Origin: Sipunculus nudus
Taxonomy: Eukaryota; Annelida; Sipuncula; Golfingiida; Sipunculidae
Reading direction: 5' to 3'
Length of the DNA stretch: 64,000 nucleotides
NCBI GenBank assembly: GCA_026874595.1
Contig: CM049308.1
Location: 17,918,001 to 17,982,000, forward strand
Within the stretch, counting starts at the first letter, position 1. The number at the start of each line of letters is the position of its first letter. Of this stretch, positions 10,667 through 59,443 are shown piece after piece. The notes below the pieces were generated by a model. That model was not told where the DNA came from. It saw nothing but the letters and a program-made list of their open reading frames with translations, and searched no databases. The translations under genes and the position numbers were made by a program.

Positions 10667-13600
10667 ATGGGACCCATGGGTCACGGCGCTCAGCTGATCG
10701 TGATTGGACCATAAATGTTTCTCCACTGTGATACTATATCGAGTCGATAAAGCTTATGAATATCATGGACATGTTGGGCTATTATAAAGGAATGTAATGT
10801 AATATGTGAGTAAATGATAAATGAAATAACCTGACTGATGAATTAATAGAGTCATATATTTATAGAGTCAAATATGAATGCAATGACAGCAGGAATAAGC
10901 AGTAGTAGAATTATGATAAGGCTATTTGTTGAAGGATCTAAAGTGTATGGTAGTCTGCAAGCTTTCAATTTGACAGATATGATGTTATGATTAACTATGC
11001 TGATGAAGTGATTTATGAATTTGTGACTGTATGACACAATATCTCTTTAGTCTTGACAAGGTACATTATTGTGATGCCCACTATGTCTACATATTACACA
11101 ATATTGACATAATTTCTGGCATGTACATAGGTACCTATGGATGAATAGTTATACAAAATATTAAAGTATGAATATATCTGATTCATCTTGTTCTTGCTTA
11201 CTGAGGCTGACTTTGGGATGGGGTTCGGAGAAGGGAAAAGTGAGGGCAGCACGAAGGTGGATGTAGAAATATTCTATTGTAATGTTTTTCATTTATATAA
11301 GAATATGAAAAGCTAAGAGGAAAGGGGCCCTCCTACTTGGTTATAGTAGAGTTCTAAATATATGATTGCAAACTAATACTCTGACAAGACTGTCATGAAG
11401 AAAAACAGTAAAAGTTTTGAGATACTGTAATGCATGAAAATTTACAGATGGAAAATTTACAGATGGAAAGGCAAGTGGACAGAATGGACTAATACCTTTA
11501 TTTCACTTTCAAGGGAATAATGCATTTAAGTTTATATATAAGCCTATTTTTTTTTAAGCATATCCACTTTTTCCATTAAGAAGTTTTTATCTGAATCATT
11601 TTTTTATTTTACAGGTTTTATAAATTTTAAATGAAAAAACCTGAAAATATAAGTTAAAATATTAGAATTGTTGCAAAAGTTGCAATCATTATATATACAG
11701 AGTAAAAAACTGAAACTATAAGTTAAAATATTAGAATTGTTGCAAAGTTGCAATCATCATATATCCAGAGTGTAGCTCATATTGGGTCATATTATGCATA
11801 CACATATATTTTATTATTTTTAAATCATAAATGTTTAAACTGAATTTAAAAGAAAATAATGCCACAACATGGCATCTACAAGAATATTCCTTGAATCACT
11901 ATTAAAAAGTTTTGCACATTTGAGTTTTCAGTACCTGCTTAATTTTATTCACCAAAATAAAATAAAATATTCAGTAAATTTGATAAAATAAAACATCTTT
12001 TCAAATAAAGTATACATACTGTTGGTTGAATGAGAAACAAACAATATCATTGTGCTAATTATTATCCAAGTTTTAATTAATTACTGAAATTAATAGTCAA
12101 TTTCACACCCGGTGAAGTTTTTACTCCTCTGAAGTAAGGAATTACTTATCTCATGAACATCCACACTTTCATAGCAATACACCACTTTGTGGACACAATT
12201 AAATGTACACTTTAATCATTGTAACCCTGGTGGTACAATACAAAATCTAAAATGTAGCATAGCCTAGAATAAGAATGAATCACATACAGAAAATAATAAC
12301 ATTCATCTAGTTTATGCACCATCTGGGGGGGGGGGGGGGAGGGAGTGCAGAGCAGAGGGGAAGCCTGCTGGTAGTGGCAAAGCTGACCCAAGGCAAGCTG
12401 CCTGGGGTGGGTTACATAATGCAAGTGAAGGCTGTACTACTAGGTGGGCTAGATGTAAACAACACTTGACATGGTGTATGAAAACATGAATAAAAGCTAT
12501 TCTTTCCAATCAATTTCTTTGAAATTTCAGATTTTAAAAGATTAAATCCTTATGTATATATGCTGTGAAAATTAAATCAACAGTGCCAAAGTTGGACAAA
12601 ATTTAAGGTATTCATTTTTTATTTATGCTAATAACTTGAAAAATTTGCAAAATTCAGATCTAATTTTGGGTAAACAATTGAATCTTGATTAAATAAAGTT
12701 ATATTCCTGAAAAAAAGTCTCTAGGTTCAGCAATTCTCATGTGAGTAAATATATTTCCTGATTTTTTAACAAATTGCATTATGTTTTTGGCCCATAACTT
12801 CAAAATAATACCCAATACTAACCTAATTTTTGGTATGTTCATAGAAAATGTATTAAAGAATGTGAATCCTAAATACGATCAAAAACAGATCAGTGGTTTT
12901 GATATTAGGCAGCCCTGAAGTGTAACAATGGCTTTTTTTAATGAAAACGGAGTTTTTTTCCCCTTAATATCTCGAAGTCCTGAACAAAGTCCTAATGACC
13001 CAATTTTCGGTATGGTAGGAGATTTTGGGGACATCTAAAATTATGTCAACAGCCTGGGGAGCATAGAGATGTGCACTGAATGACCTACAGTCATCAAAGT
13101 GGACTGCTTGACAATGTAAGGGAATACAACAAGAGCCTCCAAAAAAATTCAATAACTAGCCTAATTTTGCAGCTTTTATTTTCAAATTTCAGATTTTAAT
13201 AGATTAAATCCTTATGTATACATGGTGTGAAAATTAAATCCACAGTACTTACAGGAAAAAAACGTGCTATGGCCAAAGTTGGGCAAAATTTAAGGTACCA
13301 ATTTTATATTTTTGCCAATATTTAAAAAAATTTAACAAATTTTGATCTAATTTTTGGTATACAATAAAATTTTGATTAATATAAGTTGTATTACTGGAAA
13401 AAAGTCCCTACCTTTTACACTTTTGGTCTTAAGTGACCAAATATCTTCCTGATTTTTTTACAAAGTCCATTATGTTTGGGCCCATAACTTTTTTAAATTA
13501 TATAATACTGACTTAATATCTGGCATGTACATAGGAACTATATAGAGGAATATTTATGGTAAATATGAAGAAAACCAGATGAGTGGTCTTGATTTTAGGC

Positions 13601-13866
13601 AGTCCTGAAGTGTGAAAATAGATTTTTAATAAAAAATTGAGGTTTTTCCTTAATATCTCAGGGGAACGAAGTCCTATTGACCCAATAATTGGCATGGTAG
13701 GAGATTATGGGGACATCTAACTGTATGCCGAAATTCAGATTCGTAGGTCCAACGGTGTCGAAACGTGCCAGTCTTACGGACAGACATCCAGACGGACGGA
13801 CGGACGGACGACGGACAATGGACCATGACTATAGCTCAGATGACTTATAGTCAGCTGAGCTAATAA
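10667..13866 (+). mobile_element. Modular hairpin-ended element, full length (copy B)
   Basis: The 5' motif is at 10669-10696 (GGGACCCATGGGTCA ... GCTCAGCTG). The interior includes two tandem modules of about 660 bases (starting near 12530 and 13190), each with a CCTTATGTATA ... GTGTGAAAATTAAATC block and an ATTAGGCAG(C/T)CCTGAAGTGT block. A GGACGGACGGACGACGGACA tract follows, then the 3' hairpin at 13832-13862. There are no credible protein-coding frames. A G15 tract lies at 12325-12339. Confidence 0.75.
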
Positions 13867-13968
13867 ATATATATATATATATATATTTGGTAGTAGCATG
13901 AAGTATTTTACACAGATCTATATCTGCAGTTATATATCATATATATATATATAAATATATATATATAT

Positions 13969-16154
13969 GTCAGAGACGAGATTGAAATCCAGGCGGATTT
14001 TAAATTCACCTAGACGAGATTGCGATTGTGATCTTGCCTAGGCGAGATTGCAATTGTGATCTCGGCTAGACAGATTTTAAACTGGCCTAGACGAGATATC
14101 AATAGCAATCTCGCCTAGGCGAGATTAAAATCCATCATGGAGCAGGCCATGATTTTAATCTCGCCTAGGCGAGTTTAAAATCTGTCTGGTGTCATCCAGG
14201 CGAGTTTAAAATCTGCCTGATATCACTTGGGCGAGTTTAAAATCTGCCTAGGCGAGATTAAAATAGTGATCTGATCTAATTTCCCAATAAATTATGCATT
14301 GTATTGACTTATGAAAGATGTTTCCAGTCAGATTTTCAATATTTTAACACTGAATGGTTACGTATAGTTCACAAGTAATATATTTATTAATATTTACAGA
14401 TTATATTATTAATCAAATAATTAACATTAATTTAGGAAATGGAATATTTTATATTATATATATTTTATTAATATGGTTATGTATAGTTCACAAGTAATAT
14501 ATATTTAATATTATTTACAGAATATTATAATATTTATGTAATAATTAACATTATTTTTTTTATTTTATATTTTTATTTATAAACTATGTAATAAGAAACT
14601 TACATTGGTATTGTATATGGCATATTCAAATGATATATGATGTGGGCTGCTGCTGATTATTTACATAATAATTTTGTTGTCAATATTAATTTGAAGGGAA
14701 ACTGGTATTAGTAATATTAGTAATGTAGTATTTTAAAAAGACAAAAGGAACATAGCTCATTTATTTTTTATCAATATAATTCAATGCATGTTCACATGCA
14801 TAAATGATCTATTACTCTATGAATCTAGAAATCATATTTTTTCTGATATGATATATAATACTGTCCAAAAAAAGGCAGTTATCTTGTAACACAGTCTACA
14901 TAAATATTGAAGCTTCACAAAATGCCTCACAAAACATTAAAAAAAAAGATCAGAAGAATATTATATACATTATAAGAAAAGACAAAATAAGACAAAGAAA
15001 TATTCACTTACATACATCTGTGTATCAACTTTTACCTTTTCTCATATGATGTTTAATTACCTAAAAAAAGGATGGTGTATCAAAGTCCATCATTAATACT
15101 GATACCCTGCATATTTTGTACCATAAGTGTACATGTTTTGACTGTTGAGTGTTGAATACCTGGGTGAAAAGAAACATTTGAACTAGATCAACCAACTAAT
15201 TTGTTCTGTTTGTCCTGTTAGGAATTATCAAATAGGATGATTGTTTATGTTAATGTGTAATATACTCATTAAATAGTGAAGTAATAGCTATCTAAACTAA
15301 TCTATCTATCTGTCTATCTATCTATCTATGATTGATTCAATATGCAACTGGATGACTTTTTCCCCCAGATTTGCTCTTCATAATATCTCATAAGTGTGCT
15401 TCAATATACCTCTTGTTACTCTCTAATTGCCATATATTTAAATACAATTACAAATTATTTTTTTTGGTAAAAATTATTAGTGATATTTACAATCCCAAGG
15501 TTGTTAAGAAAACTGGAGAAAAAAAAATAAAGATAAATTAATGTTAAGCAAATAATTGGTATGATAAGGATGCTGTAGACCACATGAAACACATCAAAGG
15601 TTCAAATAATAATCAAATATCTATTTCATAATTCTGTTTCCAAAATTAATGTTAATTATCACATGAATAATTATTACATTACTGTAAAAAAGTTAATTAT
15701 TACATTAATACTATAATATTCTGTAAATATTAATAAATATATTACCTTTTAACTATATGTAACCATTAGGGTGTTAAAATATTTAAAATCTGACTGAAAA
15801 CATCTTTCATATGTCAATTACAATGCTTAATATATTAGGAAATTAGATCAGATCACTATTTTAATCTCGCCTAGGCAGATTTTAAACTCGCCTAAGTAAT
15901 ATCAGGCAGATTTTAAACTCGCCTGGATGACACCAGACAGATTTTAAACTCGCCTAGGCGAGATTAAAATCATGGCCTGCTCCATGATGGATTTTAATCT
16001 CGCCTAGGCGAGATTGCGATTGATATCTCGTCTAGGCCAGTTTAAAATCTGTCCAGCCGAGATCACAATTGCAATCTCGCCTAGGCAAGATCACAATCGC
16101 AATCTCGTCTAGGCGAATTTAAAATCCGCCTGGATTTCAATCTCGTCTCTGACA
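13969..16154. mobile_element. Foldback element 1 with arms of about 500 bases
   Basis: Left end TGTCAGAGACGAGATTGAAA and right end TTTCAATCTCGTCTCTGACA are exact inverted copies. Inverted similarity continues for roughly 480-510 bases in each arm (13969 to about 14450; about 15640 to 16154). The outer 330 bases of each arm consist of short units themselves palindromic, such as AATCTCGCCTAGGCGAGATT. The central 1.1 kb is AT-rich and has no transposase frame. Both ends abut (TA)n, so a TA duplication cannot be distinguished. Confidence 0.85.
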
Positions 16155-16155
16155 T

Positions 16156-16199
<44 letters not shown>

Positions 16200-16597
16200 T
16201 ATATATATACCGTAGGCATAGTCATACATATGATATATTGCTAGTACTTGCCTTATTTATCTCTAGCCCTAGCCGCTGACAGCGCCATCAGTTTTTTTTT
16301 TAAATAATGATATAGCCCCATCATATGTGTCGCCCTATTTAGAGTTTATTTAACCATAATGTCGCGCCTGCACCTATTGTAAAATCGCTCGAACTTTATT
16401 AATTTTCATGTTCTCCCATGTAAACCGGAATTTATAGACTATACTCGCTCAAAAAAACAGTCCTGTCACTCAGTGAAGGACGTCTTGAAACTTGAAGTTG
16501 ACCCATTCTGACATTCATCAGTATATTGCGCGCAGACATATATATGGGGATCACTTTCAGAACTTTTGACTATGGTATAAAATATAGTTACAAAATG
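16155..16597. other. No gene recognised
   Basis: A (TA)n flank of the foldback element is followed by ordinary AT-rich sequence; there is no supported exon or repeat family. Confidence 0.4.
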
Positions 16598-17164: not shown

Positions 17165-17658
17165 ATGTGGTTCTTAGGAACCGCCCGCATAAATTTTAAC
17201 CCACGCATCAAAAAAATTTTTTTTTTATTTTCATCTATAAAGAAGATAAAATATTAAATTTTTGATAAGATTTCCTTTTTTATGAAGTGCTTTAACTTGT
17301 TTAGCAAAAAAACTTTTAGGACAAAAAAATAAAAGGTTTTTATCTCAGGCACCGCCCGCATTAGTTTAAGACCCATCAAAAAATTTTTTTTATTTTGATT
17401 TTCAATATAGAAGCTTTCCAATTTTGAGCTCCAGCTGCTCGGACATTTCTTTCAAGAAGATAAAATAATACAATTTTGATAAAATTTTCTTTGTTTTTGT
17501 AGTCCTTATACTTGTATAGCAAAAAAAAACCTGTTATTATCATGCTTTTCCCTGATCATATGACATTTTAATCGAAACATACAAAAAAAAAGGTAAAAAA
17601 AAAAAAAAAAACGCCCGCCCGCACTGATATATGAAAAAAGGTGCCTGAGAACTATACC
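17165..17658. mobile_element. Composite MITE (TCTCAGGCAC ends) upstream of the NOXRED1-like gene
   Basis: Left end GGTTCTTAGGAACCGCCCGC (17171) and right end GGTGCCTGAGAACTATACC (17640-17658) bound the block. A third end (CTCAGGCACCGCCCGCAT) at 17344 shows two copies side by side or nested. The same ends bound a single copy at 26371-26635, and one end is seen at 28493. The composite stops 143 bases before the gene's ATG. Confidence 0.6.
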
Positions 17659-17801
17659 TTTTTTTGCATAATAATAATAATAATAATAATAATGATAATA
17701 ATATCAATATTATGCATACACGTTTCACAAAAATTTGCTCATTTATTGATTTGAATGGTCTAGTTAGGGACCAGTCTATTTCACTATGGCAACGTTTCAA
17801 A

Positions 17802-25835: not shown

Positions 25836-26370
25836 AAAATTTCATGAGATTCAGTTCATAAATGCTAGCTAGCTATCTTGTTTAAGCCTTAAAGTGGGAA
25901 GTGGTTTAAGTGTTAGAGAGGAAGGGTCCTTCTTATTTTGGGTTAATTACGCAACGATTGAGTGATGGACCAAATGCTCAAAATGGCACAATGTTCATAG
26001 GGCCAAAAACATATAAAACTTAAAAATGCATGCAGATAGAGTCCAAAATTTTATATTTTGTGGCGTCTTGGCCCAACATGCATGCACCCCTGTACGAGAA
26101 TTTGCCCATGCAGTCATTGCTGAGAAAAACAAACGGACAACGGACGGACGCCACCCGATGGCTATAACTTCTAGTTGAGATTGAAATTAATCTGATATAT
26201 TAAATGAAGCGATAACATGAAGAGTCCAGGAAATTTAATGGATCTAAAGAAAACCTGAATCAAAGACATTGTATGTGTATAAAGAAAATTGAAAGCAACA
26301 TAGAGTTAACTGTGGTCTTGTTTTTACTTAAGAAGAATTTCCATCAAATTAGAGCCATTAGGCCAAAAAA

Positions 26371-26635
26371 GGTATGGTTCTCAGGCACTTTTTCTCAGAA
26401 ATCAGTGCGGGGAGGCGATATTTTATTTTTAACCTTTATTGAATGTTTCGATAAAAATGTCATATGATCAGGGAAAAGCATAAAAATAACAGCATTTTGT
26501 TTACTAAACAGAAAGCACTTCATAACAAAGGTGACCTTATCAAAATTATATTATTTTATCTTCTTGAAATATAAAAATCAAAATTTTTGATGCGGGGGCT
26601 AAAATTGTCGCGGGCGGTGCCTGAGAAACATATCC
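26371..26635. mobile_element. MITE with GGTATGGTTCTCAGGCAC ends
   Basis: Inverted ends GGTATGGTTCTCAGGCAC (26371-26388) and GTGCCTGAGAAACATATCC (26617-26635) bound 265 bases of non-coding AT-rich DNA. A related, less complete copy begins near 28483. Confidence 0.65.
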
Positions 26636-26990
26636 TTTATTTTTAAATTTTTTTTTTTGCCTTATGCCCCTTAATTTGACATAAGAGAGACTATCGAGAT
26701 GTCAGGCTGCCATGCACAGTAAGTCTCCATGAGGATGCAAATATTGCGTCAATCTTTAAAAAATAAACCAAACCATTTGTTAAATATATGCTTGTGTACT
26801 TTCTAAAAAGATCAAACATGTTTGAGACATATTCCCTTGTAACTCCGCATATTGGTAAAATCCCTGTGCATATTTGTTGAATTTCTAACCGCATGAATAC
26901 AAGAATGTCTCGCACAGGTTACTGGACAAACATGTACGCGACACATAAAACAGTGAAGGATCCAGTTATTCGTAATTAGGCCAAAATAAA

Positions 26991-28487
26991 ACAAATGGGC
27001 CATGACGCTCAGCTAATTTTGACTTGGTGCTCATTTTTTATTAATGTTATATATTGTCTGTGAGAATAGCCTATGGCTAAAGTTACAGTGTTGAAAAATG
27101 GACAGAAAATAAAAAATTCAGGATTCATAGGAGACCTGAATTTCACAATAGAGGGTTCCAAGGAAAATGGATACAATTTGTACCCTGTCTGGGTGCTCAA
27201 AATCATGTTTCTGGTCCATAGCTGGCAGAATATAGGTCACCATGATCCAATTTCAGATTTCCAAGCAGAATTGCCAAAGATTTCCCTGAATGTCATGTTA
27301 GAAGAGTTTATGGCTAATGGATACAATTTGTGCCTTATCTAAGTGCTCAAAACCATTTTTCAGCCCATAGGTCACACAATATAGGTCACCATGACCTAAT
27401 TTCAGGTTTCCAAGGACACTTGACTAGGACCTCCCTGGATTTTATGTTCAAAGATTCTAGGCCTAATGGATACAATTTGTGCTCTGTCTGACTGTCTGGG
27501 TGCTTGTATGACATCTTTCTGATAGGTTGCAAAATATAGGTCATGATGACCTAATTTCATTTTTCCAAGGACATTGGTCAAGGATGTCTCAGAATATTAC
27601 ATAAGAAGATTCGAGGCCTCACAGATAAAATGTGTGCCCTGACTGTCTGGGTGCTTATATGACTTCTTTTCCTAAAGGTCGAAAATATAGGTCATGGTGA
27701 CCTAATTTCAGTTTTCCACAGGCATTTGCCAAGGACGTCTCAGAATGCCTTAGAATGTTACACTAACAAATACAATTTGTGCCTTGACTGACTTTCTGGG
27801 TGCATAAAACTTGTTTTCGGCATGTAGGTCACAAAATGTAATCCACCATGACTTAATTACAGGTTACCAAGGAGATTTGCCTAGAGCCTCCCAGAAAATT
27901 TTGTAAGAAGATTCTAGGCCTAACCGATATGATTTGTCACAATCTGACATTAAGGGTGTTCATACATCTTTTTCCTATCAGTCGCAAACTATAGGTCACA
28001 GTGACCTAATTTCAAGTTTCCAAGGACATTTGCCTAGGACCGTCGAGGATTCTAGGCCTAATGGATACTATTTGTGTCCCATCTGACTGTCTAGGTGCTC
28101 AAATCATGTTTTCAGCCAATAGGTCACAAAATATAGGTCAACATGACCTAATTTCAGGTTTCCAAGGAGATTTGCTTAGAAACTCCAAGGATATTGAGTT
28201 AGAAGATTCTAGGCCTCACAGATACGATTTGTCCCCATCTGACATTCAGGGTGCTCATATGACATTTTTTCCCTATAGGTATTGCGCAGAATACAGGTCA
28301 CAGTGACCTAGTTTCAGGTTTCCAAGGACATTTGCCTAGGACCTCCAAAAATGTCAGGTTAGAGGTTTCTAGGTCTAATGGATACAATTTGTGCCCCATC
28401 TGACTGTCTGGGTGCTCAAAATCAGTATAAGTTACGATTTGTGCCCTGTAAACGGACGCCGGACAAAGGGTGATTGCCATGGTAAAA
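26991..28487 (+). mobile_element. Modular element with ERE-type modules
   Basis: A diverged 5' motif (ATGGGCCATGACGCTCAGCT, 26995-27014) starts the copy. The interior is about eight tandem modules of 130-170 bases, each centred on AGGTCA-N3-TGACCT followed by AATTTCAGGTTTCCAAGGA. The copy ends in an abbreviated GGAC tract (AACGGACGCCGGACAAAGGG, 28450-28469) without the usual hairpin. Confidence 0.7.
27383..28309. promoter_or_regulatory. Array of six perfect AGGTCA-N3-TGACCT palindromes
   Basis: Exact matches to the estrogen-response-element consensus occur at 27383-27397, 27538-27552, 27689-27703, 27993-28007, 28135-28149 and 28295-28309, one per module. Decayed versions lie at 27234 and about 27842. 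Whether any receptor binds them is unknown. Confidence 0.7.
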
Positions 28488-28749
28488 AAAGCTATGATTC
28501 TCAGGCACTTTTATTCAAAAATCAATGCGGCCGGGCGATTTTTTTGTGTATGTTTCGATAAAAATGTCAAATGAAAAGGGGAAAATATGATAATAACAGA
28601 TTTATATTGCTAAACAAGAAAAAGAACTACATAACAAAGGAAATTGTTTGATTTTATCTTCTTGAAAGAAATGTCCGAGCGGCTGCAGCTCAAAATTGGT
28701 CAGTTTCTATTGAAAATCAAAATAAAATGTTTGTCGGTTAACCCGCTAA

Positions 28750-29787
28750 TGTCCAAGTAACAGACACGATATTCCGCACAACTCTAGTGTAATCAATACC
28801 AAATAAAACCCGCTTGTTTCGAACCTCGGATGTGTCGAAGTTTTCTGAGGGTCCCGTCGACTTCGACACAAAATATAAATTCTTAATGTCGGTTTGGCTT
28901 AAAATAAATTAATCGCCCGGAGGACCTGTAGGGGATTTGGAACAGAACTGTGTACTCGCCCATACATTTTTTTATTCGCCTCGGGCGAGTGAATGGGTGA
29001 GCGTTAGTGTCGAGTCCCGGTATGAATTATTTACCAATGGCAGCTTTAAGGATCTTTAAATATTGCATATTGCACTGTTTCAGGATATCTGTTTGTTAAT
29101 AGGATGTGATGTCATTTACCAAATACATAAATTGATAATGTGACTTTATGTATGTATAAGCTCCAGTTGTTGTTTTTATTTATGTTGACCAGTTTTCTGT
29201 GCGTCGAAATGGTAGGCTATGTTCCAAATTTTTCTTGTAATGGTATACAGATTAAAGCTGTTTGTATCACATTTATGCTAGATTTCGGCTGAAATGGCAT
29301 TATCTGTTTCATTTTATGACTTCGATAATTGTCCCCCAACCAAGCAACAATCATGCACAAATTTGCAGAAATTGAATGTAAAACCTTCGGTTCATCTGTT
29401 GAGAATAACAAGCAATCTTTATAATTTGCAGAAATCATAAATATTAGAGATATGATTTTGAAACTTAATATGCAAATAGGTTATTGTAAACACTGTGTAA
29501 ACTATCACTCGGGTCACTGAGACCTATATTATTACTTTTATTAGTGTCAGATTCAGCGGAGGGTCAAGACCCATATATTGCAATTTGGTTCAGTTTATTG
29601 GTCAAATAAAATACTGGAAATCTGCCAAACTACGAGAACAAAAAAAAAGTCAAAATTTGTTTCAGTTCTTGGTGTTGTGCATGTGAACAAAACGGAGTGG
29701 AGTCCCTTTGTTGATGATTTGTATTATTAACATGCAGATGTAATGATTTATTTGAAGAGAGCAAATATATACTATAGGATAATATAA
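28750..29787. other. No gene recognised
   Basis: Unassigned sequence between repeats; short GC-richer piece at 28750-29010. No supported exon. Confidence 0.35.
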
Positions 29788-32211
29788 ACAAGTGACCCAT
29801 GGGTCATGACGCTCAGCTGCCAAGCATGACCTGCGACATCATGGGCTGCAATTCACAACTTATAGTAAAATTGTTGCAGAACCTCTATGCCAATTTTGTT
29901 TAAACTTTCTACATTGCCATAAATTCTTATCATATATATCTGGTTAAAGCATAGTGAATGATGGTCTGAGGCAAAATGTATGGTTGTTGAGCTATCAGGA
30001 ACTAATCCCACAGTTTGCTCGATACCTGTCAGTCTCAAAAGGAATACCACACAGGCCACATATAAGATCAAAATATAGCAAAAGATCAAGGAAATCCATG
30101 CAAGAATTATTGTGAAACGGGTGCTTCCATATTAATTTTTATTCAATACAAGCCAACTGTACTGAGCTTTCATAAATGATGGTCATATTTATTAAGAAAT
30201 CTTTGACCCAATGCAAGATTTCATTAATATACATCCCACTACATTCACTTTAATAGTTCTTGAGATAATATGTTCTAAAGGAATTTAAAGATGGCGTCCT
30301 GGTGGCCATATTAGATTTCTGACAGGTCGGAAATTGAACAACAAACATCCTCTAAAAGGGACCAAACATCATAAAAAATCACAGAAAATGTCCTGGCAAA
30401 AGGATTTCTAAAATGGCTACCTGGCAGACATAATGGTTTTCTGACAAGTCACACATCCTCCAATAAGACACTAAACTTGTAGCAATTGCTTCAAAGAATG
30501 TAACAGTTATGAATGTCCAAAACAATTCAAAAGGCATGATCAGGTTGGAGAGCTCTCATATCAGATTTATGAACATGCAAATGTAAAAAGTGCAAGTCCA
30601 ATTTGTTTTAATTATCAGCTTGCTATTCAATGGGGTCAGCAGGGTAGGTAAACTGCAAAACCTAAAAGAAAAGAAATGCAGAAAGCATCACTAAGAGTCT
30701 TGTAATCAAATAAAGCCATCCTAAATCCAGGTACAGACCCACATATTATCAGAACAAACACTTGCTGGTATATCTGATGATTTGTATAATAATATTCAGA
30801 TATCTAGAAAACTAAGTTTATTGCTATGATTCCATGATATAAACTGCAAAATGTTCCCATCATTTTATAAATCAGTAGCTAAACTTAACACTTAACTCTC
30901 ATAGTCTTAATGCCTGGCCAAAGCATTCCGGCAACAGTGTTTTTGTTATGCACTAATGATTTAACCTTATCACTCCATGAGCTGATACAAAAGGGAGTCA
31001 TATATCACAAGTGTCACTGACAATTATGGGCACATAGTGAGATGTACCAGTTGTGAGTGCCATATGGTTATATATACAAGAAAACAAGATAAATAGAGAT
31101 GGTCTACAAAAAAAGTTATTGTGAACATCCCTGACCTATGACCTTGGCCTTTTGCCCACATATCAACTGGATTCTTTCTAAATGATGGGAAACTACTAAC
31201 CACTTACATCTGGCCGGGTGTAATTACTTGGCAACCAATGAGTGAATAACTTAGACCTGCAACCTTTAACCTCCTGACCAGCTGACCTCAAAATCAATTA
31301 GTTATTTCTTCATGCTAAAAGACCCATAAATATGAAGTTTGAATCAAATTCAGTGATGCATAGATGTGGCATATGTGAAAGACTGAAGGTTTGGGTTGAA
31401 CAGTTTCACTTGAAATATGTTCACAAGCATTTAGAACAATATTGTGACCTTGACCTTTGACCTTTTGAACTCAACATCAATAGGCTTCTTCTCCTATTGG
31501 TAGGTAAGCCATATATGACAGATGGAAAGTATAGATTGAAAAGTTTGCTGAAAATGACTCCACGCAAGAAGAGGGTGCTGTGAACTTGACCTTTGACCTC
31601 AAAATCAACAGGTCTTTTCCCCTGTTGGCAGAGAAGCGATATCAGTGCTGAAAGGTTTGGAATGAAAGGTCTAGCTTGAAATGTGTCCACAACCTTTTCA
31701 AAGAAGTGGATCCTGTGACCCTGACCTTTGACCTTGTGACCTCAACATCTATAGGATTCTTCTCCCACTTAGTAGGTGAGCTATATGTGAAAGATCAAAG
31801 AATTGGGATGAAAGGTTTGGCTTAAAATGCATCCTGAGGCTTTTCAAAGAAGTTTGTTCTGTGATCTTGACCTTTGACCTTGTGACCTCAAAATAATTAT
31901 GGTTCTTCCCCTGTTGGTAGGTGAGCTGTATGTGAAAGATGGAAGGTTTGGGATGAAAATTTTGGCTAAAAGAATTATTTCTGAGGGGTGCAAACACACC
32001 CCATAACTTCGAGAATATAGGTCGCAGTGACCTAATTTCAGGTTTGCAAGGAGATCTTTTTAGAACCTCTAAGACTGCATAGGGTTTATGGCCCTAGCCC
32101 CTATAGTTACGATTTGTGCCCTGCGGCCGGCCGGACGGACAGACGGAAGGACGCCGGACAAAGACCCATCGCTATAGCCCAGCATGACTGAAAGTCAGCT
32201 GAGCTAAAAAA
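29788..32211 (+). mobile_element. Modular hairpin-ended element with DR1-type modules (copy C)
   Basis: The 5' motif is at 29788-29819 (GTGACCCATGGGTCATGACG, then CTCAGCTG). The interior has tandem modules including four of about 140 bases with TGACCTTTGACCT, and two blocks around 30290 and 30412 with ATGGC(G/T) ... TTTCTGACA. One ERE-like site is at 32019-32033. The end is a GGACGGACAGACGG tract and the hairpin 32175-32206. Confidence 0.72.
31451..31880. promoter_or_regulatory. Array of four perfect DR1 nuclear-receptor half-site pairs
   Basis: TGACCTTTGACCT (AGGTCAAAGGTCA on the other strand) occurs at 31451-31463, 31587-31599, 31722-31734 and 31868-31880, about 135-146 bases apart. A one-mismatch copy is at 31132. 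This is the consensus used by RXR heterodimers and HNF4. Use in vivo is unknown. Confidence 0.65.
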
Positions 32212-33002: not shown

Positions 33003-35393
33003 AACAAGGGACCTATGGGTCACGACGCTCAGCTGTTATATATGATAAAAAAATATTATTTAGAAATGAGGCACATGCTGGTTTTGTGTGGTAATAAATA
33101 TAAGCTGTATTATGAGTTGTTGTTGTTTAGCTTATGTATGATTTTGATAGTTCCTTTGGAGACAGGGAAGAGGATTGATTTCATTTATTTTATTAACAAA
33201 TGGAGTACTATTGTCACACAGATTTTGACTTGGCCATATAACTTATAAGCAGAACATATAATATAAGAGTTCAACTATTTATTAAAAAAATTACAAATAT
33301 TGTCCCAAATATAATTTTTATTAAAAATAATAAGAGAATCATATGATTTTTTAAAATGAAATATAACTGAAATGATTATTAAAAATAATATTAAAGAATA
33401 TATTCATGAATGCATTCATGAATAAATTTTGAAAGTATTTGCACAGGTATTCATATACTTTCATTTTTACCTGAATTCCCATTCTTTATGCAAGAAATTT
33501 TATAATGGAGTACATAATCATATTCGTATTTAAATACAATTACAAAGTATTCGCACCATGTCTGGTATTTATTCAGTTTTCACCAAACAATGATGTTGAG
33601 AATCCAGAATATACAAAATTCACACAGTTAAATAATGATCATAAGTACCTGGTTTTATGGCTTTTATTTATATTAAAAAATAACTAAAAAAAATCATTTT
33701 GGACTAATTTCACATCAATGTACACACTAGACACAGTAGGAATCTAGATTAATATTATCAACTGCATCTTTGTCTATCATTAATTTCCTTCATATGATCC
33801 CTAATGATTAGTAATGAATAATATGATTTACTTCTTTATCATTAAAATTGAACTTAAAAATGCCATAGGTGACTGCATGGTGTTATTTGGAATACGTGAC
33901 ATTCTACCCATCCATACAAGATTCTTATATCATCAGTAACTGCAAGTTAATTTCCTGTTATTATAAACTAACCAATTCCTTTTCTCTTTTTCTTTAATTT
34001 GTTATTAAAAACCAATAAAAATTTATTGATTTATTGTTTATTGTTATGTTGTTGGTTAAAACTACTAGATGAGTTGGGTTGGACACCTGGAGCAACAGTG
34101 GCTGGCCATAAGCTGCCTGGATTCCGCGTATGCCTCGCCTCAAGCATGCATAAAACAGGTGACTCAAGAGGGGATGGAGAGAGTCAAGGTCTGACATGGT
34201 CTCATAAAAACATTAATAAAAGCTACAATTTTTGGCCAATTTCTTTCAGCTTTCTAAACTAAAAAGCTGAAATCCTTATGTGTGCATGATATGAAAATTA
34301 TATCAACAGTGCTCACGGGAATCAAACGTGCCATGGTCACAGTTGGGCAAAATTTAAGGTACTAAATTTTATATTTATACTAATAACTTATAAAATTTGA
34401 AAATTCAGAACTAATTTTGTATATTCAACTAAATCTTGATTAAATAATGTTACATCCCTGACTAAAAAATTTCTAGCTTCAGCAATGCCCTTGTTAAGGG
34501 AGTAAATATATTTCTTGATTTTTTACAAAGTGCATTATGTTTGGGCCCATAACTTAAAACAATTACGCAATACTGACATCATTCTGGCATGTGCATAGAG
34601 ATTGAAAAATATAAAGCTGAAGCTGGGGAGCTGAGCTCTTGCAAACTGCATAACACTAGCTTGATGTAAACAATATGTTACATGGTGCTTGAAAACTTGA
34701 ATAAAATCTACAGTTTTTGATCAACTGGTTTCAAATTTTTGGTGTTAACAGTTGAAATGCTAACAAAAACATGTGAAAATTAAATCCACAGTACTTACAG
34801 GAAAAAAACGTGCCATGATCAAATTTGGACAGATTTAAGGTACCAATTTTTTATTTTTATTAATATTTTAAAAAATTTAAAAGATTTTCATCTAATTTTG
34901 GGTATACAATTTAATTTTAATTAATTAAAGTTATATTACTGGAAAAAAGGTCCATAGCTTTAACATTTTTTGTGTTAAGTGATCAAATATCTTTCCTGAA
35001 TTTTTACAAAATGCATTATGTTTGGGCCCGTAACTTTTTTAAATTGAATAATACAGACATAATTTCTGGCATGTACATAGGAACTATATAGAGAAATATT
35101 TATGGTAAATATGAGGAAAAACAGATGAGTGGTTTTGATATTAGGCAGTCCTGAAGTGTGAAAATAGGTTTTTAATAAAAAATTGAGGTTTTTCCTTAAT
35201 TTCTCAAAGGAACGAAGTTGCAAAGACCCAGTTTTCGGCTTGGTAGGAGATCTTGGGGACATCTAACATTATGCCGAATTTTGGATACCTAGGTCTTACG
35301 GTTTCAAAACGTGCCACATCTACGGACGGACTGACGGACGGACAATGGACCACGACTATAGCTCAGATGACTTATAGTCAGCTGAGCTAAAAA
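33003..35393 (+). mobile_element. Modular hairpin-ended element, full length (copy D)
   Basis: The 5' motif is at 33003-33035 and the 3' hairpin at 35359-35389. Over most of its length it is nearly identical to copy E (56813-59443), including short open frames near 33505 and 57313. Relative to E it lacks about 200 bases near 34600, within the first of the two tandem modules. Confidence 0.82.
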
Positions 35394-36626: not shown

Positions 36627-36698
36627 ATTTCTTCTAGTAGTAACGATACTCACAACTGGTGAACAGAGCAGTGAATGGTCTCGCCAGGGGGAACCCGG

Positions 36699-47669: not shown

Positions 47670-47905
47670 ATGAAATATGCTTTTCAGAGCTAGTTACACA
47701 AGAAAAGTCTGCATTGGCACTGTCGGCTCTAATATACCATACAGTAATTATAATATTGTCTTCTTTCTGTAATACCCGGTATAGTTTAGTTATCAAATAA
47801 AAAGAATTTTTTAACATTAATTTGTTAAAATACAAACAATTCAGAATATTACTGTATATATACAAGAATGTTACTGTATATACTTTTTTTCAGTGTCACT
47901 CATAC

Positions 47906-48850
47906 CTTATCAAACAAAATTGATGAACTGATGGAGATAGCGACGGCATTCCCGGTGTTAACAAAGATCCAGAAACACATGACAAATACACCAAAAGCAT
48001 CCTGGGATACATTCACGATTTGGTAGAGCAACACACAGGCCAGAGGAATGTTGGTGACGTAACAGCACAATATCATAACTTTAAAATCATTGTCTATCAC
48101 TTGCACGCATGCGCACAGTTGCAAATGGCGGCGTCTCAGTGTTTCTAGGTCCGAAGGGAACACCAAACGGTCCCCTATTGTCCTTTTTAACGTTTCTTGG
48201 AGTGTTTGGAACTGTTGTACAAGTAACCAAGCAACTAGACAGATGAATGAAATTGGAAACACCCAAGCCCCCGAATCAATAGCATGGAAAATAAGAAAAA
48301 TAACAATAGTTCTGAAGTTTTGCGAAAAGGGGCTAGACTGGGAATCGGACATGGCAACTCTCGTTGAAACAGGCCCATGCGTTGCTATGGTTACGATAAC
48401 AATGTTCGTCACTACTAATGTCCATGAGAAAATGGCAAATTTTAATGAATTTGTACGAAGGATCTTTTCGTTGACGTCATAGTAGTCAAGCATGCACATG
48501 CACTGAAATGACCGTTATAACGAGAAGTTTTGTGCAAGACTGGCATTTGTGGCGCACTGGAGAAACCAAGTCATGTTAATTATGCGGTTCACAAGAAACT
48601 CTGGTCTGAATGGCGTGCCCACCCGAAAGGAAGGTATCATCCGGATAAAGTTGAACCATAGCAGTCCTAAAACCAGCAGACAGTAAACTCTCCCATGAAG
48701 CAACTGGCTTGCCGTGGAAGCATATCGTTTCCTTTGCGACTGATCTATTTCCACGCTCTTAATGTCAGACCATTTCACGTCGCTGCGGAACAAACCAAAT
48801 ACTCGCATGCTTCCGAGTAGCGGAGCCATTGCTACCAACAGCCTCGCCAT
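47906..48850 (-). pseudogene. Gustatory-receptor-like (GRL) seven-TM chemoreceptor, main exon, with in-frame TAA
   Basis: A single frame runs on the minus strand from ATG 48850 to a strong donor (GATAAG|GTATGAGT) at 47906/47905. It is broken only by TAA at 48517-48515. The start has the Gr-family look (APLLGSMRVFGLF). TM helices follow in order: LLVLGLLWFNFIRM, a second helix around NRIINMTWFLQC, FAIFSWTLVVTNIVIV, a long FLIFHAIDSGAWVFPISF helix, MILCCYVTNIPLACVLLY, and FVMCFWIFVNTGNAVAIS. A charged intracellular segment (TLRRRHLQLCACVQ) precedes TM5, as in insect Gr and mollusc GRL proteins. Sequence on both sides of the TAA fits the family loop between TM2 and TM3, so the stop interrupts a true reading frame rather than separating two genes. 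An acceptor-like TTTTTTAG at about 48866-48873 suggests a further 5' exon. It is called a pseudogene because of the stop; a functional read-through gene or a base error is possible. Confidence 0.72.
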
Positions 48851-50710: not shown

Positions 50711-50711
50711 T

Positions 50712-52153
50712 TTTTAGCTCAGCTGACTGAAGGTCAACTGAGGTATAGAAATGGCCATTTGTCCGTCTTCCATCGGGGCGTCCGACCGTCCGTAAGCAGG
50801 GCACAAATCGTAAACCCTGGACCTAGAAACTTGTTAGTGAATATCCAGGGAGGTTAATAAAAAATCTCCTTGGAAACCTTAAAAACCCTAAGTAACGTCA
50901 GTGCGACCTTTATTCTTGCAGCTATGAGTCTTGTAAGTACCCCCCCCCCCCGAATAATTCAAAATTTGATACAAACCTCCAGTATCTTAATAATTAATGC
51001 ATGGATTGCCATAAATATTGTCTTGAATATTGACCGTGACTTATTATATCAGTTCCGGAAAAATGGTGGCGCCACTAGCATTTTTTTGTTTTTGTTTTTA
51101 ACGATTTTTTTGCTATTTTTGAGACCGTCAAATTGCAGCAATCATGCCAGTTTCTCAGTTGTGGTTTCACCTGGTGTCCTGAAACCAAGACATTACTAGT
51201 TCCTTCAGTTGCAGAAGACTGGTGGTGCCACCTGTATTTTTTTCTCCCCTCAAATCACAGCAATGTCAGTATTTAGATGTGATGTTATCTAGTGATGCAT
51301 TTATTGATCATAATTTGTTTTTTTCAGTTCCTGAAGACTGGTGGCACCACATATTTTTAGCTAACTGTGAGATTATGCGATGGTGTGGCATCGTCCGTCG
51401 TCCGTTGTCCATCGTACCGTCAACAATGATATGAAAAGGAAAGGTTACAGTATATATCATGCAATTTTATTTGGGGCAGATAAGATTTATAATTGTTGTG
51501 TTGTGTTCACCCATGCCAGTATTTAAGCGGTGATGTTTATGTTATTGGTTCTTGATCAAATTGTTTAGTACTTGCATTGTTCATATGCATGGTTCACATG
51601 AAAAGTAAGGATCCAGCATTGAGGCAATATACCTGGTGTATATCCCATTGCACAGGTTTGTATTAGGGCTGTAGGCCTTGTTTCAATTTTTTACACGCCC
51701 GTTTTGCCTTTATCTTGACGCTACCAAATTACAGTGATACTCTCAGATTCTTAATGTGATTTCATCTGGTGTCCTCAAACTTGTGTGTTTATTTTGTCTC
51801 TAACTCTCAAGTAAGGCTGGATCAATTGTTTTTTAAATCAGGTATTTTCAATCCAAACCTTTCATCTTGCGCATATTGCTCAAACTTTTCATCCCAAACT
51901 TTCCATCTTTTACACATGGCTTACTTGCCAAATGTGGAAGAAATCTGTAGATTCTGAGGTTACCTGGTCTGCGGTCAACATCACATTTTTCAAAGATTGT
52001 TAAGATAATCTAAATGCTGTACGTTCAAGATAGTAACTCCTCAAATTTTTGGTCTCAAGGTCATTGGTTACGTCACTGGAACCACATTTTGAAAAAGCTC
52101 ATAAATATCCTTACAATCAAATTCAGCTGAGCGTCGAGACCCATGGGTCCCTA
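50712..52153 (-). mobile_element. Modular hairpin-ended element in reverse orientation (copy F)
   Basis: The 3' hairpin is read in reverse at 50747-50717 with a GTCCG-rich (complement of GGAC) tract beside it. The 5' motif is at 52153-52125 (complement of CAGCTGAGCGTCGAGACCCA and on to TGGGTCCCT). The interior mixes GGTGGCGCCAC modules, as in copy A, with CCCAAACTTTCCATCTTTTA modules, as in copy C. Confidence 0.7.
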
Positions 52154-52159
52154 GTCGTT

Positions 52160-53598: not shown

Positions 53599-54990
53599 AA
53601 CAAGGGACCAATGGGTCACGGCGCTCAGCTGTTATATATGATCACAAAATATTGATTTGGAAGAGGAGGTAGGCAAAGGCTGGATTTGTGAGGTAATATA
53701 AGCTCTATTATGAGTTGATGTTGTTTAACTCAAGTTTTGTAAGGTTTTGATAATATCCGTTGAGACAGGGAAGAGGTTTGATGTCCCTAATATTATTAAC
53801 AGTTGCAAATGGTGTGCTATTATCACACAGGTTTTGAATTGGCCATAACACTTTACCTAAATTGCAGCAGAATTATTTGAAAAGTTAAACTATTTATTAA
53901 AAATAGATAACATATATTGTGTCAAGAATAATTTAAATTAAAAATAATAACAGTATCATCTGGTTTTTTTTCATCAAAGATTTTTTAATAATATTATTGA
54001 AATAAATGATTATTAAAATAATTTTATAGAATATATTCATGAATGCATTTGTATTCAAATACTTTAATTTTTACCTGTATTCCTATCCTTATACATGAAA
54101 TTATGGAGTACATATTCATATTTGCATTCAAATATTTGCAAAGTACTGCAACATGTCTGGTATTTATTCAGTTTCAGCCAAAAAATAGTTCTTGAGGATC
54201 CAGAATAATCAAATATCACAAATTTAAATAATGATCATAAGTACCTGGTTTTATGAATTTTATTTATATTCAAAAAATAAAACTATAATATTCACTTTGG
54301 ACTACCTTCACATCAATCTATGCACTAGACATATCAAGAGTCTTATGACAATTATTAACATTACAGAAATCATAATGAAAACTTGTCTAAGATTTGATTT
54401 TTTATCATATTCTATTTTTTTATTTAAAAAAATGTATCAGAAAAACATTTGTAGTATCTCAGCTATGAAACCATTATATGTGTAAAAAATAACCCAAGGA
54501 TAAGAACATCCTATAAATTATACAAGGAGAAAACTAGAGATGGGCAAGTTTAATTTTATTAACTGAAATATAGGAACCAGTAATATAAATATTGATTATT
54601 TGCATAGTCTAGTGACATCTGTTACAGCCACGTGTCTGAATGTCATAAGTGAAACATACTGACATCTTTAATCAGTACTTGTCTGAGTAAAATTTTAAAA
54701 TTTTGACATTTTAACTTTTCGTTAAATTTTGAAATAAATATAAATTAACAAGCTGAAACACTTGGAAAAGATCTGGGAATTTAGATTTATATTATCAACT
54801 GCATCTTTGTCAATCATTAATTTCCTTCATATAATCCCTAATAGTATAGAACAATATAATTTAATTATTTTTTTTTTTTCATTATTAAAATTGAAAAGAA
54901 AAATATCATAGGTAACTCAATGGTGTTACTTGGAATACATTTTCATCCATCCATACAAAATCCATAAAACATCAGTAATTGCAAGGTAAT
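53599..54990 (+). mobile_element. Modular element, 5' part only (copy G)
   Basis: The 5' motif is at 53599-53631 (GGGACCAATGGGTCACGGCG, then CTCAGCTG). It is followed by a diverged version of the 5' half of copies D and E (for example ATGTCTGGTATTTATTCAGT near 54150). The 3' tandem modules and hairpin are absent. Confidence 0.65.
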
Positions 54991-55199
54991 AGACCTTTTC
55001 CGTTTCACCCGCGACACCTGTCGGCGATATTTAACATCTATGGTTCGGGGTTGTACACGTGTACGGGTTTCAAAGTCGGATTTACTGGAAAAATCACAGA
55101 ATCTAAGGCTGAAAACAAATGGCCAGCTATCTTAAACAATAACTTTGAATTACCCTAATATCCGACATTTCAAAACTGAAACCAATTACCACTAGATAT

Positions 55200-55960
55200 T
55201 TCTTGGCACCGCAGGTGCCACACGTTTACGCTGCAGACATCCAAGCTCATATCTCGGGAACCGTTTGACCGATTGGGCCAAAATTTTGCATGTGTATAGA
55301 TCTCACATAGCTCTTTATCATACATAACTGGTGGCGCCACCTGCAACCATTTTTGCACAGCGTCCATCTGTTCATCTGCCTTGGGATAAAATTACTCATA
55401 TCTCGGCAGTGGTTTAACTTATCCACCTGAAATTTTGCAGATTTATACATCCTAGACAGCTTTCTTGATTTTATGACAGGTGGCGCCACCTACATACACG
55501 TTTACGCTGCAGACATCCAAGCTCATATCTCGGGAACCGTTTGACCGATTGGGCCAAAATTTTGCATGTTTATACATCTTGGATAGCTTTCTCGATTATG
55601 TTGCAGGTGGCGCAACCTACTTTAATGATTACGCTGCAGAAATTCAGGCTTATATCTCAGGACTGGTTTGACATATCCCCCTGAAATTGCATATGTATAG
55701 ATCTCATATAGCTCTTAATCATATACAAAATTGGTGGCGCCACCTGCCACCATTTTTGCAAAGCGTCCTTCTGTTTGTCTGCTGTGGGATAAAATCATTC
55801 ATATACAAGTAGTGGTTTGACTTCTCTGCCTAAAATTTTGCATATGTATACAACTTGGACAGCTTTCTGGATTTTGTGGTAGGTGGCGCAACCTACATAC
55901 ACATTTCGGCTGCAAACATTCATGCTAATATGCAACACACCTCACTCTATTTCCCCTTGC
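55200..55960 (+). repeat. Tandem modules with GGTGGCGCCACC palindrome
   Basis: Units of about 140-150 bases alternate. A block of some 70 bases (GCTGCAGACATCCAAGCTCA, ATCTCGGGAACCGTTTGACC) is almost identical at 55218 and 55506. The 12-base palindrome GGTGGCGCCACC occurs at 55330-55341, 55479-55490 and 55733-55744, with decayed copies (GGTGGCGCAACC) near 55605 and 55881. Confidence 0.7.
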
Positions 55961-56812
55961 CACTCAATCCATGCCTGACTTCACACGTCCCACTCTGATT
56001 TCGGCGGATACATGTAGTCGCTTGTCGACTTCCCGTATTCTAGATTTAAATGTCCTAGTCCGAAACTTGCAGGTCCGAAACATCCATTTTGCTGAAACCA
56101 TAATACTAAGGTAGATATGCAGGACATAAGAGGATCAATATTAAATTTTAAAAATAATCCTCCATTCATACTCCCAAACTTTGCACAGGTTCGCATTAGG
56201 CCTGTAGGCCTTGTTATTTTAACTTAAAATGTCTTGTTGTTCAAGTGTCACGATATTGTGTTTTGCTCCCGGCACAGGACTGCTTTAACAGAAGTATTCT
56301 TTGGTACGGGCTATACCCTGCATGTGGAATGTATGTGTGCCCGTTTGTCGGGCTATTCAGGTGGATGTACCGCTGGATTACGATCTAAATGGAATGACAG
56401 TGCAAATCTTTTTTAGCCTTTGGGTGGATAATATTCCTAAACGCAGGTAGGGGGGGGGGGGGGCAATGAGAGTAGCGTCAGTTTCTATTTTTCAGTGTCA
56501 CCGCAGATAATTCAAGCCCGTTCTTGCCATCACACAACAAATATCAAATTGTTGTTGTTAAAGTATATTTAACAAGCATATTTACACATACATTATAATT
56601 AAAACAATAATGTGAAACATTTAATTACTGACTACCGGGAGGGGGGGGGGGGGGTACCGGACCCCCTGGACTGCCAGTCCAGATCCGCTACTTAATATAT
56701 ATATATAATTATTTGATACACGATAGGCCTATAGGTCTATAAGCTTGTCAGTATATATAGGCTTGATTATGTTTTGAATATATTCCGCAAATTTCCTTTA
56801 GCTGTTCTGTAA
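55961..56812. other. No gene recognised; two poly-G repeats
   Basis: G14 tracts at 56450-56463 and 56641-56654; the second is flanked by TACCGG/CCAGATCCGC sequences like the poly-G MITEs elsewhere in the window. Confidence 0.4.
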
Positions 56813-59443
56813 AACAAGGGACCTATAGGTCACGACGCTCAGCTGTTATATATGATAAAAAAATATTATTTAGAAATGAGGCACATGCTGGTTTTGTGTG
56901 GTAATAAATATAAACTGTATTATGAGTTGTTGTTGTTTAGCTTATGTATAATTTTATAGTACCTTTGGAGACAGGGAAGAGGATTGATTTCATTTATTTT
57001 ATTAAAAAATGGAGTACTACTGTCACACAGATTTTGACTTGGCCATATAACTTATAAGCAGAACATATAATATTAGAGTTTAACTATTTATTAAAAAAAT
57101 TACAAATATTGTCCCAAATATAATTTTTATTGAAAATAATATTAGAATCATATGATTTTTTAAAATGAAATATAACTGATATGATTATTAAAATAATATT
57201 AAAGAATATATTCATGAATGCATTCATGAATACATTTTGAAAGTATTTGCACGAGTATTCATATACTTTCATTTTTACCTGAATTCCCATTCTTTATGCA
57301 AGAAATTTTATAATGGAGTACATAATCATATTCGTATTTAAATACAATTACAAAGTATTTGCACCATGTCTGGTATTTATTCAGTTTTCACCAAACAATG
57401 ATGTTGAGAATCCAGAATATACAAATTTCACACATTTAAATAATGATCATAAGTACCTGGTTTTATGGCTTTTATTTATATTAAAAGATAACTGTAAAAA
57501 ATTCATTTTGGACTACTTTCACATCAATGTACACACTCGACACAGTAGGAATCTAGATTAATATTATCAACAGCATCTTTGTCTATCATTAATTTCCTTC
57601 ATATAATCCTTAATGATTAGTAATGAATAATATGATTTACTTCTTTATCATTAAAAATGAACTGAAAAATGCCATAGGTGACTGCATGGTGTTATTTGGA
57701 ATATGTGACATTCTACCCATCGATACAAGATTCTTATATCATCAGTAACTGCAAGTTAATTTCCTGTTATTATAAACTAACAAATTCCTTTTCTATTTTT
57801 CTTTAATTTGTTATTAAAAACCAATAAAAATTTATTAATTTATTGTTTATTGTTATGTTGTTGGTTAAAACTACTAGATGAGTTGGGTTGAACACCTGGA
57901 TCAACTGTGGCTGGCCATAAGCTGCCTGGATTCTCCCCTCAAGCGTGCATAATTTGATGAAAGGTCAACAAGGTCAACATACAGGTGACTCAAGAGGGGC
58001 TGGAGAGAGCCAAAGTCTGACAGGGTCTCATAAAAAACATTAATAAAAGCTACAATATTTGGCAAATTTCTTTCAGCTTTCTAAAAACTAAAAAGCTGAA
58101 ATCCTTATGTGTGCATGATATGAAAATTATATCAACAGTGCTCACAGGAAACAAACGTGCCTTGGTCACAGTTGGGCAAAATTTAAGGTACTAATTTTAT
58201 ATTTATACTAATAACTTGTAAAATTTGAAAAATTCAGAACTAATTTTGGGTATTCAATTGAATCTTGATTAAATAATGTTACATCCCTGACAAAAAAAAT
58301 CTCTAGCTTCAGCGATGCCCTTGTTAAGGGAGTAAATATATTTCCTGATTTTTTACAAAGTGCATTATGTTTGGGCCCATAACTTAAAAAAATACACAAT
58401 ACTGACATCATTTCTGGCATGTGCATAGTGAATGTATAGAAAAATATGTATATTATATATGATCAAAGTCAGATCAGTGATTTTGATATTAGGCAGTCTT
58501 AAAGTGTAACATTGGGTTTTTAATGGAAAAATGAAGATTTTCATTGATATCTCGAAGGAATTAAGTCCTAGTGACCAAATTCTTGGCATGGTAGGGGATT
58601 TTGGAGAAATCTAACTGTATGCCAAATTTAAGGAACTTAGAGCTGAAGCTCAGGAGCTGAGCTCTAGCAAACTGCATAACACTAGCAATATGTGACATGG
58701 TGCTTGAAAATTTTAATAAAATCTACAGTTTTTTAACAACTGGTTTCAAATTTTTGGTGTTAACAGTTGAAATGCTAACAAAAACATGCTGTGAAAATTA
58801 AATCCACAGCAATTACAACAAAAAAACGTGCCATGGTCAAAGTTGGGCAAAATTTAAGGTACCAATTTTTTATTTTTGCTAATATTTTTAAAAATTTTAA
58901 AGATTTTGATCTAATTTTGGGTATAAAATTTAATTTTGATTAATAAAAGTAATATTACTGGAAAAAAAGTGCTTAGCTTTAACAAGTTTTGTGTTAAGTG
59001 ATAAAATTTCTTTCCTGATTATTTACAAAATGCATTATGTTTGGGCCCATAACTTTTTTAAATTAAATAATACAGACCTAATTTCTGGCATGTACATAGG
59101 AATTATATAGAGGATTATTTATAGGAAATATGAAGAAAAACAGATGAGTGGTTTTGATATTAGGCAGTCCTAAAGTGTGAAAATAGGTTTTTAATAAAAA
59201 ATTGAGGTTTTTCCTTAATTTCTCAAAGGAATGAAGTCGCAAAGACCCAGTTTTCGGCTTGGTAGGAGATCTTGGGGACATCTAACATTATGCTGAATTT
59301 TGGATTCCTAGGTCTTACGGTTTCAAAACGTGCCACATCTACGGACGGACGGACGGACGGACGGACGGGCGGACAGACGGACGGACGACGGACAATGGAC
59401 CACGACTATAGCTCAGATGACTTATAGTCAGCTGAGCTAAAAA
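56813..59443 (+). mobile_element. Modular hairpin-ended element, full length (copy E)
   Basis: The 5' motif is at 56813-56845, with two tandem modules starting near 58070 and 58750. A long (GGAC)n tract at 59342-59388 and the hairpin at 59409-59439 end the copy. It is the closest relative of copy D and has the extra 200 bases that D lacks. Confidence 0.82.

Follow-up and report, generated by a model that had tools for sequence, protein, structure and literature searches.

A stretch of 64,000 nucleotides from Sipunculus nudus (assembly GCA_026874595.1, contig CM049308.1, positions 17,918,001 to 17,982,000; hereafter the window, whose own numbering is used below) contains several copies of a repeated element with the same two ends and different sequences between them. 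The question raised by this locus is what kind of element it is, and how one set of ends has come to enclose so many interiors. The copies are very probably HINEs, the non-autonomous Helentrons. They form a large HINE family of known architecture, in which the exchange of interiors is confirmed and has a precedent in oyster Cg_HINEs.

Read in its own direction, the element starts with oligo-T and continues with a subterminal inverted repeat (subTIR, AGCTCAGCTGAC) and its complementary arm, a GTCC microsatellite, tandem modules and a unique segment (H1, H2, H3 and others), after which come the subTIR CAGCTGAGC, the palindrome GACCCATRGGTC, CCTTGTT and T. A preliminary description of the window had reported a 5' motif, GGGACCYATGGGTCA..GCTCAGCTG, and a 3' hairpin ending CAGCTGAGCTAA; both were found at the places given, far above chance, and the inverted repeat noticed near both ends proved to be subterminal (GCTCAGCTG / CAGCTGAGC, 9 bases perfect, 10 in copies with H1). 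By analogy, however, the 5'/3' assignment made there is opposite to the one used for described HINEs, because the left and right flanks match the Cg_HINE flanks of Crassostrea gigas (PMC7492417). The left end is the reverse complement of the former 3' end (TTTTT-AGCTCAGCTGAC-TATAA-GTCATCTGAGCTATAG, then the GTCC tract), and the right end is the former 5' end in reverse complement (CAGCTGAGC-GYCGT-GACCCATRGGTC-CCTTGTT). In four copies the left arm was compared with shuffles and gave a hairpin z of -5.7, -5.7, -5.8 and, in a copy on the opposite strand, -3.7; the GGAC/GTCC tract adjoins this hairpin. The palindrome GACCCATRGGTC stands near the right end in most of 16 aligned ends. In copy D, for example, the left end (35358..35393, -) comprises oligo-T, AGCTCAGCTGAC and the complementary arm (z -5.7), and the right end (33003..33036, -) comprises CAGCTGAGC, the palindrome GACCCATAGGTC and CCTTGTT, with a fold no better than that of shuffles. 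The right edge was sampled through copies picked by an outside GCC (99 of 100 listed rows, one duplicate place being removed), and bases were counted in 87 copies after leaving out 12 that share one repeated target. This edge is sharp, each base of AACAAG being kept in at least 85 of the 87 copies, and the sequence outside it is A-rich and otherwise unrelated.

In the genome searched (1.43 Gb, 153 contigs), the exact palindrome end has 9,905 + 9,916 matches and the exact 15 bases of the hairpin end have 19,964 + 19,668, with 0 for the reversed-pattern control of each. The 26-base palindrome end with at most 3 mismatches was found 22,539 + 22,256 = 44,795 times. The two ends had been expected to co-occur genome-wide, and on C1, one chromosome of this assembly, they do pair: among the matches listed on the + strand, up to ~1.74 Mb, a hairpin end lies within 5 kb downstream of 52 of 74 palindrome ends (18 of the 52 pairs being spaced by 2.48-2.63 kb), against 29 of 72 when pairing is sought in the other direction, and the two ends therefore belong together. 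The element library, sister family included (see below), covers ~26% of the window (16.9 of 64 kb) and 51, 35, 0, 27, 19 and 16% of six 10-kb tiles at round C1 positions. Tiles from two other chromosome ends, L052 and L053, had no match to it.

Loci fetched from the genome, numbered with L, provided evidence on insertion. Another repeat in L043 is interrupted by a copy that has both ends; when the flanks of this copy are joined, they match L045:3430-3648 through the junction (90.4% identity, 219 aligned positions). The occupied site reads CCTTGA, then the element from AACAAGGG to GAGCTAA, then AAATGCATC, and the unoccupied site reads CCTTGAAAAAATGCATC; L046 has unoccupied monomers of the same 146-base satellite. 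Apart from the A/T run, the empty site shows no target duplication, and the target is oligo-T, as in HINEs, for which a T-rich target without duplication is described (PMC4067079, section 6). Comparison of H2 copies with L008 gave an empty site of the sister family as well. The oligo-A tract of the 146-base satellite (L046:1499-1802; flanks in L043, L044 and L045) is a recurrent target, and 12 of 99 sampled copies share such a satellite flank, a figure inflated by the selection via the outside GCC.

These sites also bear on two other classes. TIR transposons and miniature inverted-repeat transposable elements (MITEs) carry terminal inverted repeats (TIRs) and duplicate their target. The inverted GCTCAGCTG near both ends would suit such an element, but the repeats are subterminal, the terminal AACAAGGG and GAGCTAA do not form inverted repeats, and the empty site lacks the duplication; this class was rejected on both counts and is exceedingly improbable. 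Canonical Helitrons start with 5'-TC, end with CTRR-3' and insert between A and T. Taken in the direction of the preliminary description, the hairpin lies near an end reading CTAA, as in a canonical Helitron, but the other end starts with AACAAGGG rather than TC, and the insertion target is an A/T run, for which reasons the candidate was rejected. A hairpin with an adjoining microsatellite agrees with the left end of a HINE (PMC7492417, section 7), and a canonical Helitron is very improbable.

The longest stop-free frame in six window copies has 114 codons, leaving no coding capacity; Rfam gave 0 matches and the tRNA scan 0 genes. For movement the copies would depend on a rolling-circle protein (Rep, Pif1 helicase, endonuclease) that an autonomous Helentron encodes. 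Helitron_like_N matches number 143 genome-wide, and DUF6570, OTU, Rep, Pif1 and a C-terminal Exo_endo_phos are found together in two intact frames, of 2,235 and 2,230 codons, a C-terminal endonuclease being a distinctive Helentron trait (PMC4067079, section 7). These two Helentron-type proteins (L039/L040 and L041/L042) are 85.6% alike over 6.6 kb, and the likeness ends a few bases past the stop codon. When the interiors were compared with Helentron coding sequence, only the 127-base array and the 179-base modules of the sister family (beside L036) matched, beyond short matches; the 127-base match is placed ~3 kb upstream of one of the frames and runs opposite to the direction that a partner should have.

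Several results weigh against the class or the direction adopted here. The autonomous Helentron with the same ends that had been envisaged was not found: the ends are absent from the 20 kb read around each of the two intact frames (at most 2 mismatches) and from 30 further loci (L009-L038, ~3.5 kb each). The direction of the element rests on likeness to Cg_HINE. Three palindrome ends have a predicted fold no better than shuffles, and the subTIR of 9 bases (10 in H1 copies) is shorter than the 11-12 of Cg_HINEs. The empty site belongs to one fetched copy; for window copies B, C, D and E, the joined flanks met no empty site in the window or the fetched loci, their flanks matching only themselves and, for B, simple TA repeats. 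The HINE class is nevertheless favored because of the structural features tested (subTIRs, a hairpin with GTCC microsatellite, a palindrome, no coding) together with the oligo-T empty sites, in agreement with the HINE- or pearl-type class first suggested.

The closest known system is Cg_HINE of C. gigas (PMC7492417). It shares with the present family the left subTIR with complementary arm and GTCC-type microsatellite, the right subTIR with palindrome, central tandem repeats, a T-rich target without duplication, and element pairs with related flanks and unrelated repeats; no autonomous partner is identified there either. The end sequences differ as far as compared, the subTIR is shorter here, and the family of S. 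nudus has long unique segments (H1-H3) and 660-base modules. DINE-1 and the mite HINEs likewise have subterminal inverted repeats, a palindrome near the 3' end, an unmodified TT or T-rich target and, in some cases, tandem repeats, whereas a partner is known for several of those families and not for this one (PMC4067079). The oyster pearl elements CvA, CvE and CvG, likened by description only, have HINE-type ends and central tandem repeats (PMC11136912, PMC7492417).

Eight copies with one or both ends had been counted in the window, five of them (B, C, D, F and E) with both. Five copies do have both ends and two have one, while the eighth, the array called ERE, has none; F has only its palindrome end, and the fifth complete copy is one on the opposite strand. 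On the minus strand, with strand given in the element's own direction, copy B (10664..13866) carries the H1 segment and 660-base modules; copy C (29787..32210) a segment H4c, 140-base DR1 modules and one repeat akin to the 338- and 150-base modules; copy D (33003..35393) H2 and 660-base modules; and copy E (56813..59443) an H2 96% identical to that of D, 660-base modules and a GGAC/GTCC tract at 59341-59393. The complete copy on the plus strand (50711..52156) has a segment H5m and a repeat akin to the 338-base module. Copy A (1..921, -) is partial, with 338-base modules, the GGAC/GTCC tract and the hairpin (left) end, its other side lying beyond the window. Copy F (53599..56047, -) has the palindrome (right) end, a diverged H2 (75-78%) and 127-base modules; end searches of the window found no hairpin end in it. 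The same searches placed neither end near the array of ~150-base ERE modules (~27130..28430), which carries GGTCAnnnTGACC and is akin to the 338-base module. The hairpin end of copy C was found by end-motif searches and missed by the looser library scan.

A segment library was mapped on the window and 11 fetched loci. H1 occurs in B, in L001 and in both the inner L043 copy and L045, and is shortened in L004. H2 occurs in D, E, the second copy of L002, L003, L004 and L008, in diverged form in F and L044, and H3 in L002, L006 and the outer L043 copy. The three segments are mutually dissimilar except for one 41-base match between H1 and H3 and matches of 13 bases. Followed from the segment towards the left end, the 660-base modules come after H1 in B, L043 and L045, after H2 in D, E, L003, L004 and L044, and after H3 in L006 and L043, and the hairpin end comes next in B, D, E, L043, L045 and, past H3, L006. 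There are two exceptions: H2 of copy F is followed by 127-base modules, and in L002 another copy's palindrome end comes after H3. Within an element of L047 that has both ends, copy B positions 917-1455 are replaced by an ERE array. Because H1, H2 and H3 are all found with 660-base modules and L047 has the ERE array, several interiors occur between the same pair of ends, and a single module family is joined to several segments. These mosaic copies support the exchange of interiors between copies.

The interiors had been called interchangeable, which holds insofar as different modules lie between fixed ends; not all of them are independent, because several modules are diverged relatives. The 338-base module is akin to the 150-base module, and both are akin to the last repeat in C and in the plus-strand copy; the view that the interiors are wholly unrelated was rejected for this reason. 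Compared with single-base shuffles, the microsatellite-side repeats show a clear relation among A, C, the plus-strand copy and the ERE array and a weak one for B and E; the 660-base modules have a weaker relation to the 338- and 150-base modules. Since only the two ends are constant, the rolling-circle protein may read the ends alone, which would leave the interior free to vary and therefore exchangeable; a rolling-circle step in their movement is presumed. Related flanks with unrelated repeats are already published for oyster Cg_HINEs (PMC7492417), and other published cases have different arrays within a single element, or the same array in several elements (PMC12628747). With architecture and exchange both in print for Cg_HINEs, the suggestion of a new kind of family is not supported.

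The ERE modules have a feature of their own. The motif GGTCAnnnTGACC, which we take to be a perfect oestrogen-response-type palindrome, is kept in 6 of the 8 window monomers (27130-28430), its three middle bases varying. Sites of this type number 11 in 332,065 bases scanned, 9 of them within the arrays at window 27130-28430 and L047:4672-5671.

A second HINE family, the sister family (family 2), lies at L008:1543-2483, inserted in a T-run of the H2 segment of the first and in the same direction. Its layout is oligo-T, ATGCCCCCGCC with complementary arm, a GTCC-like tract, 179-base modules, and GGCGGGGGCAT with a palindrome. The left end recurs in L036 and L049, and the 16-mer of the right end has 1,433 + 1,527 exact genome matches.

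The strand of the copies raises a further question: on C1:0-21 Mb, neighboring copies tend to lie on one strand across tens of kilobases, and the second family tends to follow it. Position-ordered matches of both strands were used, the dense test covering C1:0-21 Mb; 300 listed family-1 rows merged to 239 distinct ones, and 72 of 100 listed family-2 rows and 46 of 100 listed MITE rows fell within this range. The strand counts below are among the matches listed. In C1:0-3.13 Mb, 102 of the 105 distinct right ends of family 1 are on one strand and 3 on the other; family 2, in its own direction, favors the same strand by 9 to 1. Family-1 strands are clustered at 3.13-13.7 Mb (28 runs vs 45.2 expected, p 0.0002) and not clearly at 13.7-21 Mb (p 0.27). 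Among the 10-kb tiles, HINE sequence is on one strand only at 0.5 and 1.5 Mb, absent at 2.5 Mb, and at 12, 16 and 20 Mb on both strands, the other strand and the first strand, respectively. Family 2 agrees with the family-1 majority 10-50 kb away in 34 of 41 cases, a value reached by 0 of 71 circular shifts, and in 25 of 31 once the terminal stretch is left out (0 of 61 shifts). At 100-300 kb the agreement is gone (34/62; 27/52 without the terminal stretch). The TIR MITE serving as control agreed in 10 of 16 cases at 10-50 kb (12 of 45 shifts reach this) and had no strand runs of its own (59 vs 50.9). Near the start of C1 there are long satellites of 31, 55 and 24 bases (L048:1-9997, L047:1-2659 and L001:142-1453, respectively).

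The explanation that we prefer, tentatively and by analogy, is that animal rolling-circle transposons might insert on the strand dictated by the direction of the replication fork. Insertion would use DNA opened at forks, so that copy strand would follow fork direction. Bacterial elements of the IS200/IS605 family use the lagging-strand template as their insertion target, and their copy direction thereby tracks replication (PMC5371812), which would resemble the pattern here, as an analogy in strand pattern only. Replication at the donor and on the circle is discussed in the Helraiser study (PMC5876387). No Helitron strand pattern of this kind appeared in the titles and opening abstract lines searched, most subscription journals being outside the coverage.

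Part of the evidence speaks against the strand pattern. In 99 sparse copies from C1-C9, there were 2 same-strand and 3 opposite pairs within 200 kb and no clustering at any distance, after which an initial idea of strand domains across the whole genome was narrowed. Family 2 alone does not cluster (47 runs vs 50.0). The MITE control reaches 21 of 34 at 20-200 kb, equaled by 1 of 45 shifts, and its sample is small; the terminal stretch contributes 3 copies, which include both strands. The pairs of the strand test are not independent, and the close test is confined to C1:0-21 Mb.

The pattern could instead come from direction-locked nesting, in which HINEs enter the oligo-A/T tracts of HINEs of fixed direction and the piles grow one way. 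A nesting scan, from which L003 was left out because it overlaps L002, gave 33 rows: 8 nested in the same direction, 1 opposite and 14 not nested, with 6 mirror hairpin readings, 2 matches to a library piece from the same locus and 2 matches shorter than 40 bases set aside. Direction was thus the same in 8 of 9 usable nested cases (C1:62-154 kb and L043), and in L008 the second family lies inside the first in the same direction. On the other side, none of the 11 window ends scanned is nested, the two families agree at 10-50 kb, longer than one element, and same-strand copies in L046 are parted by non-library stretches, of which 6751-8500 has no match in the window or fetched loci. Direction-locked nesting is real and may account for part of the strand pattern; as the explanation of that pattern it is rather doubtful.

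An asymmetry of the target or region, whether of oligo-A against oligo-T, of satellites, or of selection relative to gene direction, is unlikely. It would draw on the long satellites of C1:0-3 Mb and on L048, which has an AT skew of 0.265 and 5 A-runs vs 0 T-runs; genes, too, extend over tens of kilobases. But A-runs of at least 5 outside HINEs are rarer than T-runs in L046 and L047 (24 vs 54; 29 vs 54 with L048), the reverse of what the strand bias needs; in the window A-runs and T-runs number 166 to 168, and the MITE shows no strand runs.

The window holds other features besides. A MITE-like repeat with TIR-like ends (GGTGCCTGAGAAC) has three copies, at 17380-17690, 26340-26640 and 28470-28740, two of which flank the ERE array; its internal 16-mer has 2,317 + 2,202 matches. 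Inverted arms at 13931-14449 and 15669-16191, 93% alike over ~520 bases and with tandem sub-repeats, belong to an unrelated inverted-repeat element. A linker histone H1 frame lies at 36081-36653 (-; PF00538, 2.6e-30) and a fragment of a 7tm_7 chemosensory receptor at 47900-48499 (-; PF08395, 9.5e-8).

At a large scale, then, only the HINE ends are constant in this family, and between them lie varying segments, up to 1.7 kb long, and several different tandem arrays; such elements would act as dispersers of satellite DNA. If strand is indeed set by replication, the target choice of eukaryotic rolling-circle elements would become directly testable, and abundant repeats would be a record of replication direction. 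The strands of the two HINE families would then form a fossil map of forks, in domains of tens of kilobases, that includes a 3.1-Mb satellite-rich chromosome end in which 102 of 105 family-1 and 9 of 10 family-2 copies lie on one strand.

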